Assembly (NCBI RefSeq): GCF_025548535.1
Contig: NZ_JAJLQW010000001.1
Location: forward strand, 310,001 to 374,000
Source of the DNA: Undibacterium sp. Jales W-56
GTDB taxonomy: Bacteria; Pseudomonadota; Gammaproteobacteria; Burkholderiales; Burkholderiaceae_D
DNA: 64,000 nt
Direction of reading: 5' to 3'
Shown: in pieces, positions 62,492 through 64,000 of the stretch
How the letters are laid out: the number at the start of each line of letters is the position of its first letter
Position numbering within the stretch: the first letter of the stretch is position 1
Made by a program: the position numbers and the translations under genes
The notes under the pieces: generated by a model
Told to the model about the DNA's origin: nothing
The model's database searches: none
The model's input: the letters and a program-made list of their open reading frames with translations, nothing else

Positions 62492-63523
62492 CTAACTCTT
62501 AAATTTCGCCTCGGCGATCCGGTCCGCCACAACGCTGGTTGGCAAGCCCTCTGCATCGGCACGGGCAAATACTTCTGCCAGGGTGTCGCCGATACGACGT
62601 ACATGCGCGTCCATGCCGTCTTCCGGCGTGTTCAGATATTCGTAGCAGACTTTGATGATGCCGCCGGCGTTGATGACGAAATCCGGTGCGTACAGGATGC
62701 CCTTTTGGCGGCAGGCTTCGCCGATGTCGGCAGTGGCTAGCTGGTTGTTGGCGGCACCGGCGACGATCCTGGCTTTCAGGCGCGATAGGGTGTCCGGGTT
62801 CAGGGTTGCGCCGAGCGCGCAGGGGGCGTAGATGTCGGCTTGCACATCGTAGATCGCATCGATACCGACGACGCTCGCTCCGAACTCTTCTTGCGCGTGT
62901 TTGAGTGCGGCCTGATCGATGTCCGCGACCACGAGTTTAGCGCCGGCTTCATGCAGGCGGCGGGCGTAGTCGTAGCCTACATGACCGAGACCTTGCAGCG
63001 CGACTGTCAGGCCGTCAAAGCTGTCGCGTTTGAGCTGGTGCTTCACCGCCGCCTGCGCGCCGACGAAGCAGCCGAGTGCGGTGTACGGCGACGGATCGCC
63101 ACGGTCACCGAGACCGGCGACGAATTTGGTTTTGCTGGCGACATTGGCCATGTCGGCTGGGCTGGTGCCGACATCTTCTGCGGTGACATAACGGCCGCCG
63201 AGGCGCTCCAGGGCTTCTCCCAGGGCTTCAAACAGGGCCGGTGTTTTGCCGGTTTTCGGGTTGCCGATGATGACGCTCTTGCCGCCGCCGATAGGCAGGC
63301 CGGCTACGGCGTTCTTATAGGTCATGCCGCGCGACAGGCGCAGTACGTCGCGTACCGCTTCGGCTTCGCTGGCGTAGTTCCACATGCGGCATCCACCCAT
63401 TGCCGGGCCGAGTTTCGTGTTGTGGACGGCGATGATGGCTTTGAGGCCGGATTTGGCTTCTGAGGCAAAGACGACTTGTTCGTGGTCGTCAAAATTGATT
63501 TCGTTAAATACAAAAGCGGTCAT
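62492..63523 (-). CDS. Leucine/branched-chain amino acid dehydrogenase
   Basis: 343 residues, shorter than glutamate dehydrogenase and matching the Leu/Phe/Val dehydrogenase size. Substrate domain with [33 protein letters not shown] (Lys70 and catalytic Lys82) and a Rossmann domain with [30 protein letters not shown]. It deaminates a branched-chain amino acid to the keto acid with NAD. The exact substrate is not fixed. It lies 240 bp from the CRISPR array, on the other strand. Confidence 0.9.
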
Positions 63524-63736
63524 GCTTATGGCTCCGCGCGGTGGTGATCATGTGTCCCGATAAGGCGAATGATGACGTGCCGCAAAAAAGTTGAGTTAAA
63601 AAATGGTCAGTCAGTACAGCAAGGTCTTGCTGGTCATGGGCAGCGATGTGGTGCTGCCGACAACGGGCGGTGATTGTGTCACGCGGGTGCGAGTATAGGC
63701 GATAGGGGGCGGAAACTCAAATGGCGAAATTATTAT

Positions 63737-63752
63737 GATAATGGTTATTATC
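63737..63752. promoter_or_regulatory. Perfect palindrome upstream of the CRISPR array
   Basis: GATAAT-GGTT-ATTATC. The words are Fur-like, but the 4-bp gap differs from the 1-bp gap of the Fur 7-1-7 core. It lies 9 bp before the first repeat, in the otherwise gene-free, AT-rich flank 63524-63761. Confidence 0.35.
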
Positions 63753-63761
63753 TTAGCGGAA

Positions 63762-64000
63762 GTTCCGGTCAGAGCACATATCCCAATCTGCTAAACTTCT
63801 TTTGTTCGCCGTTCTCGGATGGTTCAGGTTCCGGTCAGAGCACATATCCCAATCTGCTAAACTTTTGCTCTTTGCCGTGTCGATGCTGCGTCGGTTCCGG
63901 TCAGAGCACATATCCCAATCTGCTAAACTTGATGCTCGCCACGGAAGATCGTGACCTCAGTTCCGGTCAGAGCACATATCCCAATCTGCTAAACTATCCA
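63762..64000 (+). CRISPR. CRISPR array, left end (type II-C-like repeat)
   Basis: Four identical 36-bp repeats start at 63762, 63828, 63894 and 63960, a period of exactly 66, with three 30-bp unique spacers and the start of a fourth. The repeat begins GTTCCGGTCAGAGCACATAT and ends CCCAATCTGCTAAACT; there is no strong internal palindrome. Length and spacer size fit type II. The array continues beyond the right edge. No cas gene is in the 64 kb to the left. The repeat end TGC-TAAACT is a candidate extended -10 on the plus strand. Confidence 0.97.

Follow-up and report, generated by a model that had tools for sequence, protein, structure and literature searches.

A type II-C CRISPR-Cas9 locus of Undibacterium in which every repeat probably ends in a promoter

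Can a CRISPR (clustered regularly interspaced short palindromic repeats) array be transcribed from within, each repeat supplying the promoter for the spacer that follows it? The question is raised by the end of the window, the 64,000-nucleotide (nt) stretch of Undibacterium sp. Jales W-56 analysed here (G000:C1:310001-374000), where four copies of the repeat GTTCCGGTCAGAGCACATATCCCAATCTGCTAAACT start at 63762, 63828, 63894 and 63960 with a period of 66 nt. In the assembly, the whole array (G000:C1:373762-377229) comprises 53 repeats of 36 nt, 52 of which are identical; the sole variant, repeat 29 (G000:C1:375611-375646), carries a T-to-C change at position 36. The initial annotation, which had proposed such repeat promoters on the strength of a likeness to Neisseria meningitidis, was right about 36-bp repeats and 30-bp spacers for the four copies in the window and, array-wide, for 50 of the 52 spacers (the other two are 29 and 31 nt long).

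We consider it probable, given the composition of the locus and the conservation of its repeats, that this is a type II-C locus whose every repeat ends in a promoter and whose transcripts start inside the spacers. The 3' end of the repeat would then act as a short sigma-70 promoter, with an extended -10 element (TGCTAAACT) and no clear -35, from which RNA polymerase would start about 6-9 nt into the following spacer to give a CRISPR RNA (crRNA) with a ready-made 5' end and about 22-24 spacer nt. Transcription would read through the next repeat, most of which would pair with a separately transcribed trans-activating crRNA (tracrRNA), and Cas9 would take the pair as its guide. Because the array probably grows by spacers added on its cas side (the 3' end), remote from any upstream leader, promoters in each repeat would spare the system a single 3.5-kb transcript.

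63762..63797, + strand: CRISPR repeat 1, the 'extra' and presumably oldest repeat, intact
63798..63827, + strand: spacer 1
63828..63863, + strand: CRISPR repeat 2
63864..63893, + strand: spacer 2, lying between repeats 2 and 3
63894..63929, + strand: CRISPR repeat 3
63930..63959, + strand: spacer 3
63960..63995, + strand: CRISPR repeat 4; the array extends beyond the window up to repeat 53 (G000:C1:377229)
63789..63797, + strand: putative extended -10 TGCTAAACT, nt 28-36 of repeat 1 (sequence, conservation, shuffles)
63855-63863, 63921-63929 and 63987-63995, + strand: further copies of the putative extended -10 TGCTAAACT

Gene content and direction of the locus

Downstream of the array, in the region L012 (G000:C1:373001-388000), are the following:

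L012:4300-8621, - strand: cas2 (108 aa), cas1 (309 aa) and cas9 (1,017 aa), from open reading frames (ORFs) and profile matches
L012:8648-8676, + strand: tracrRNA promoter-like site TTGACT-N17-TATTAT, upstream of cas9 and divergent from it

The NCBIfam models TIGR01573 (cas2), TIGR03639 (type II cas1) and TIGR01865 (Cas9, 654 bits) and the best PADLOC matches concur on the three names, Pfam places HNH_4, RuvC_III and Cas9_a in Cas9 (PF13395 and PF18541 for HNH and RuvC), and among Cas9 chains of solved structure the best sequence match reaches 230 bits. These are the only plausible genes in the ORF list between the array and the tracrRNA, and by that list the operon contains neither csn2 nor cas4, models of which were not run on the rest of the genome. 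On the 3' side of the promoter-like site follow an anti-repeat, a hairpin of 10 pairs and a run of T, a putative tracrRNA by sequence and folding; when repeat and tracrRNA are cofolded, repeat nt 9-29 form 21 consecutive pairs, and nt 1-3, 5-6 and 31-32 pair as well. A 13-pair terminator-like hairpin with a T run begins 8 nt beyond the last repeat. Since the tracrRNA signals and the T run of the post-array hairpin are all on the + strand, both the array and the tracrRNA would be transcribed on + and the cas genes on -.

Taken by its contents, the locus is a complete type II-C CRISPR-Cas9 system. The cas9 and the anti-repeat-bearing tracrRNA that the initial annotation expected nearby are present, with cas9-cas1-cas2 and the tracrRNA all within 5 kb of the array, and its type II-C assignment and plus-strand direction are supported by these genes, the tracrRNA and the orientation signals. 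No type I or III cas genes adjoin the array, and a type I or III array was rejected as an identity, the only other cas1 match in the genome search sitting far from the locus on contig C18. That contig (G000:C18) bears, from L013:27, a second CRISPR array with a 60-nt period and 67 matching copies in family D2, as well as a cas1-like gene at C18:12385-13200; we take its repeat to be of type I-F. Among the genomes that the sampled search of the order listed, neither the 2 of the same genus nor the 10 of the same family had a Cas9 match, so the present locus appears patchily distributed and may have moved horizontally.

Comparison of repeat motifs within and between phyla

The repeat ends in TG-C-TAAACT, as had been annotated, and TGnTAnnnT closes 52 of the 53 repeats, repeat 29 lacking T36. 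Among 100,000 shuffles of GTTCCGGTCAGAGCACATATCCCAATCTGCTAAACT, TGnTAnnnT was terminal in 0.08% and TAnnnT in 1.8%. Genome contigs scanned with this Cas9 yielded 78 related loci, 55-78% identical to it in the best segment; most are betaproteobacterial records, among them Undibacterium, Nitrosomonas, Rhodoferax, Limnohabitans and Diaphorobacter. Of the 78 loci, 63 gave an array and 15 gave none; together with this genome and order-level loci, the arrays supplied 50 distinct full repeats, L031, L038 and L060 having been dropped for an incomplete consensus. In crRNA orientation, T31, A32, A34 and T36 are invariant in all 50, every one ending TAnAnT as the present repeat does; no positions of the repeat vary more than 28, 29 and 33, position 35 is C (41 of 50) or A, and position 33 is T in only 3. 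The strongest positions of a -10 box are T-12, A-11 and T-7, and the near-family conservation is this pattern with A-9 fixed as well. Unlike the present locus, 33 of the 50 repeats lack the extended TG, which occupies positions 28-29 in the remaining 17. Pairing with the anti-repeat, as predicted in 58 of 61 loci, would explain little of the repeat-end conservation, for positions 16-27 are paired in 98-100% of these loci and positions 31 to 36 in 66, 60, 47, 19, 5 and 33%. Some relatives, such as L023, L043 and L045, end GTCTAGACT, in which nt 28-35 form the palindrome GTCTAGAC around CTAG.

Beyond the close family, 67 further loci around Cas9 matches (one of them a short locus) came from 399 order-level and 398 phylum-level genomes, one of the searches supplying regions from 27 of the 39 genomes above the family cut-off. 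Fifty of these distant loci yielded arrays and 17 none; the second, inverted array of L157, where the rule that the crRNA strand is opposite to cas9 fails, was left out by hand. TAnnnT is terminal in 85 of the 89 distinct repeats pooled from Pseudomonadota, the exceptions being L123 (CAAAAT), L173 (TAAAAC), L179 (TATAAC) and L129, a 37-nt repeat whose TACAAT end is displaced by one base, and TG stands at 28-29 in 35. Single linkage on nt 1-27 sorts the 89 repeats into seven clusters, the largest with 62 members. The cluster-mean frequency of TAnnnT is 0.77 at the end, at most 0.02 at other + offsets and at most 0.14 on the other strand, whereas in 2,000 rounds of a control that drew one shuffled repeat from each cluster the mean was 0.15 and the highest value 3/7. 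The conserved element is the -10 hexamer, not the extended TG. The annotation's idea of an independent family that had kept only the promoter end survives in part, as TAnnnT ends 85 of 89 repeats that otherwise form seven clusters. The independence of these families is doubtful, since a GTT-like start and the layout of the locus are common to them, and only the hexamer of the promoter end, not the TG, was kept.

If the motif is held by the preference of the polymerase and not by an integrase, a lineage with another promoter should carry another motif. Such a promoter, TAnnTTTG with TTG as its -33 element, is described for Bacteroidetes in passages of PMC10309648 and PMC8092290. The search in Bacteroidota took first one repeat and then a Bacteroides uniformis repeat printed in PMC5609589 as its query; the passage names cas2 and cas1, not cas9, beside the array. 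The printed repeat led to a Phocaeicola massiliensis record (L214) in which Cas9 and type II Cas1 were confirmed; found by the repeat itself, this record is no independent test of the motif. Two further loci were reached with its Cas9: L217 of Prevotella nigrescens, annotated with cas9 and cas2, and L218 of Persicobacter psychrovividus, with cas9, cas1 and cas2. The type II arrays with the internal motif are:

L214:8925-9508: Phocaeicola massiliensis
L217:12020-17753: Prevotella nigrescens
L218:6562-7844: Persicobacter psychrovividus

The repeats of these three loci and the published B. uniformis repeat all have TTG at 2-4, a spacing of 19 nt and a motif at 24-31, which is TATCTTTG in Phocaeicola, Prevotella and B. 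uniformis and TACCTTTC in Persicobacter; the general form, TTG-N19-TAnnTTT(G/C), resembles the Bacteroidota core promoter. Three of the four repeats are 47 bp long, the length reported for B. fragilis II-C repeats in a passage of PMC5704556. Between Phocaeicola and Prevotella, agreement is 14/14 at nt 1-14, 4/8 at nt 15-22, 9/9 at nt 23-31, 3/12 at nt 32-43 and 4/4 at nt 44-47. Shuffles of each Bacteroidota repeat produced TTG-N17-23-TAnnTTTG in 0.1-0.7% and, when the last G was not required, a match in 0.8-3.2%, and TAnnTTTG occurs in none of the 89 Pseudomonadota repeats. Being related at their 5' ends, the Bacteroidota repeats, drawn from Phocaeicola, Prevotella, Bacteroides and Persicobacter, amount to fewer than four independent cases. 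A repeat of Pigmentibacter (Bdellovibrionota, L219) ends TGATATGCT, again an extended -10.

Since TAnnnT marks 85 of 89 Pseudomonadota repeats and the one Bdellovibrionota repeat, and TTG-N19-TAnnTTT(G/C) those of Bacteroidota, II-C repeats could be lineage-matched promoters, each keeping the core promoter read by the host polymerase and differing with that lineage's preference, a proposition that these comparisons leave evenly poised. Lineage matching could account for a report that a II-C repeat of Riemerella, whose sequence is outside our comparison, lacks promoters. If true, it would matter for the behaviour of II-C loci that have been transferred to a new phylum, and the contradictory claim on Bacteroidota repeats would become testable; repeat promoters that follow the host polymerase would also explain how II-C arrays can grow at the end remote from any leader. 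The Bacteroidota internal promoter-like motif is possibly new: the relevant passages of PMC10309648, PMC8092290, PMC5006608 and PMC5704556 do not state that TAnnTTTG lies within II-C repeats, which is no proof of novelty.

Ageing of the array and alternative explanations

The ends of related arrays bear on which part of a repeat has to be kept. In the 61 arrays of the close family, changes were found in none of 60 last repeats, in 16 of 1,328 internal repeats and in 26 of 49 first repeats (27 of 50 in a slightly wider count); in the present array both end repeats are intact. Changes in first repeats number 84, 25, 7 and 1 per 9-nt quarter from 5' to 3' (n = 50 arrays). A copy in L066 has 16 changes up to nt 24 and one in L017 has 13 up to nt 17, both without any beyond. 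An exact consensus terminal hexamer stands 30 nt upstream of the first recognisable repeat in L051 (where it superseded a poor match at -71), L064 and L069, that is, in 3 of 50 arrays against 0.012 expected per offset, and the other 99 offsets together give 3 matches. In a wider remnant test, 5 of 50 arrays score at least 6/9 against 13 of 500 control offsets; one of the five is the present array, whose own 6/9 does not look like a remnant. An oldest repeat that serves only as the promoter of spacer 1 would be expected to keep its terminal hexamer, and in passages of Feussner et al. 2025 (PMC12080349) most mutations of II-C extra repeats are placed within the first 15 nt and the extra repeat is suggested to have to retain promoter function. 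Terminator-like hairpins (our own score, <= -8 kcal/mol within 120 nt) occur beyond the last repeat in 46 of 60 family arrays and ahead of the first repeat in 10 of 49.

Several observations weigh against a promoter in each repeat. TAAACT matches TATAAT at 4 of 6 positions, no clear -35 accompanies it, the prevalent C35 is a poor -10 base, and the extended TG is missing from most near-family repeats. A two-hexamer scan of the array gave 5 sites against 6.2 expected, none with the repeat end as its -10, in a model that does not cover extended -10 promoters. Positions 1-4, 6, 16, 17, 20 and 21 are invariant too (50/50), and nt 31 and 32 pair with the anti-repeat in most loci and in the cofold of this one, so that pairing may help to retain them. 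Seven clusters are few, and all may share ancestry. The oldest repeat of L020 has a damaged hexamer (T36 to C, the only change in the last quarter), as has a further L066 copy 62 nt upstream (A32 to T). Neutral truncation from the outer edge predicts a similar gradient of decay, and detection requires that the inner part survive; the decay was accordingly rejected as decisive evidence and stands as support, not proof. Finally, the repeat end could be held by Cas1-Cas2; this constraint by the integrase is a real alternative and the chief rival.

The crRNAs might come mainly from a long precursor that RNase III cuts in the manner of type II-A, internal promoters being minor, a possibility that we regard as rather unlikely. 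RNase III should act well on the 21-pair repeat:anti-repeat duplex, PMC4624362 reports that a betaproteobacterial II-C array is transcribed and processed to mature crRNAs, and published accounts describe II-C crRNAs with 24-28 nt of repeat, so 3' trimming occurs. Processing and internal starts are, however, not mutually exclusive; a scan from 63601 (L012:601) to the first repeat found no two-hexamer promoter on the + strand upstream of the array, and an untranslated 3.5-kb precursor would be awkward.

Less likely, in our judgement, is that the TAnAnT end is retained for Cas1-Cas2 recognition at spacer insertion, its -10 likeness incidental and the array served by one promoter upstream of repeat 1. 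Both repeat ends are indeed conserved, nt 1-4 as well as 31, 32, 34 and 36, the predominance of C at position 35 and the rarity of T at 33 are unlike a strong -10, and the last repeat, the presumed acquisition site, is the one found intact throughout. Against this, the upstream scan found no promoter-like site, and a start within each N. meningitidis repeat has been reported (Zhang et al., as cited in PMC7038990). In the three Bacteroidota repeats, moreover, the ends are different and TTG-N19-TAnnTTT occupies a fixed position within the repeat; what is conserved thus varies with the reported preference of the polymerase.

Transcription of the array from the opposite strand, which would make the + strand end motif irrelevant and for which speaks that the cas-side end, as the likely acquisition end, is the usual place of a classical leader, is most improbable and was rejected on the + strand tracrRNA promoter-like site, anti-repeat and terminator and the + strand T run of the post-array hairpin; the tracrRNA terminator score likewise favours an array opposite to cas9 in 41 of 47 distant arrays with an anti-repeat match (5 against, 1 tie), and two published II-C arrays are described in passages as read opposite to cas.

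The change in repeat 29 removes T36, the -7 T of the putative -10, and provides a natural promoter-knockout control for spacer 29.

Known systems, spacers and neighbouring sequences

Promoter-bearing II-C repeats are already published, and this locus would add one more case. The N. meningitidis repeat ends in an extended -10, with transcription from each repeat, according to passages of PMC7038990, PMC5006608 and PMC12638026 that describe Zhang et al. 2013, and a promoter in each II-C repeat is treated as general in passages of PMC12080349, PMC12638026 and PMC12814883. The Neisseria end TGCTACAAT at nt 28-36, which the annotation had cited, agrees with Neisseria-type repeats in same-order loci (for example, L138 and L143), and L138, L142 and L143 have both Neisseria-type repeats and layout. 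Neisseria-type Cas9s are only roughly 26-38% identical to this Cas9, by segment, the repeat body is GTTGTAG... here and GTTCCGG... in Neisseria, and the present repeat, unlike that of Neisseria, does not read as having ends that form an inverted repeat.

The same nine-nucleotide extended -10 is noted in PMC7038990 for Clostridium cellulolyticum H10, whose array is likewise transcribed opposite to cas and whose crRNAs comprise 23-26 nt of spacer and 24-28 nt of repeat, with 5' ends inside spacers; unlike the present locus, this is a Clostridium system, and the passage leaves the choice between internal promoters and processing open. In Defluviimonas, the II-C crRNAs have their 5' ends within spacers, of which they carry 24-25 nt, as given in a passage of PMC7708072. 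The Bordetella pseudohinzii II-C locus resembles ours in its cas9-cas1-cas2 genes, divergent putative tracrRNA, 36-nt repeats and 29-30-nt spacers; its crRNAs were demonstrated by reverse transcription PCR, and the account of them in PMC4624362 describes no test of repeat promoters. With the present locus, a large, mostly betaproteobacterial Cas9 family joins the II-C systems with promoter-like repeats, and the conserved part of the repeat end, the -10 hexamer, is separated from the part that is not conserved, the extended TG.

Spacer 52 (G000:C1:377164-377193), the nearest to cas2, matches primase genes of several phages, with 28 of 30 bases in Xanthomonas phage Pfeifenkraut and a match also in Septimatrevirus PaMx42; these matches fit a recent spacer at the cas-side end. 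Spacer 52 is the only one matched by the six phage records obtained at an E limit of 0.05, and the 3' flanks of these matches, TGCGGTC or TACGGTC, are too few for a protospacer adjacent motif to be derived. Spacer 3 (63930-63959) and spacer 46 (G000:C1:376768-376797), near opposite ends of the array, are equal at 29 of 30 bases; either one target was acquired twice, or a spacer was duplicated and later changed. A 23-base G+C-rich stretch of spacer 11 is also present in further genomes of the order; with 2 mismatches, 22 of these bases are found again in this genome, and the spacer was not adopted as a self-target. The first spacer base is T in 24 of the 52 spacers here and near-uniform in 1,388 family spacers.

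On the upstream side of the array, the window contains:

63524..63761, strand not given: intergenic flank upstream of the array
62492..63523, - strand: Glu/Leu/Phe/Val dehydrogenase family gene, the upstream neighbour of the array, outside the CRISPR system

Directly 5' of repeat 1, at 63737-63752, the flank reads as an inverted repeat, GATAAT-GGTT-ATTATC, which to us is reminiscent of a Fur box.

Viral contigs yielded no relatives with the Bacteroidota Cas9 queries and no match to two repeat patterns. In Bacteroides phage BS162P1 (OP172706.1), L216:601-634 is a 94% match to nt 1-33 of the Bacteroidota repeat and lies at a gene boundary; this piece could, we presume, be a solitary repeat unit of the anti-CRISPR-RNA kind, or just a promoter.
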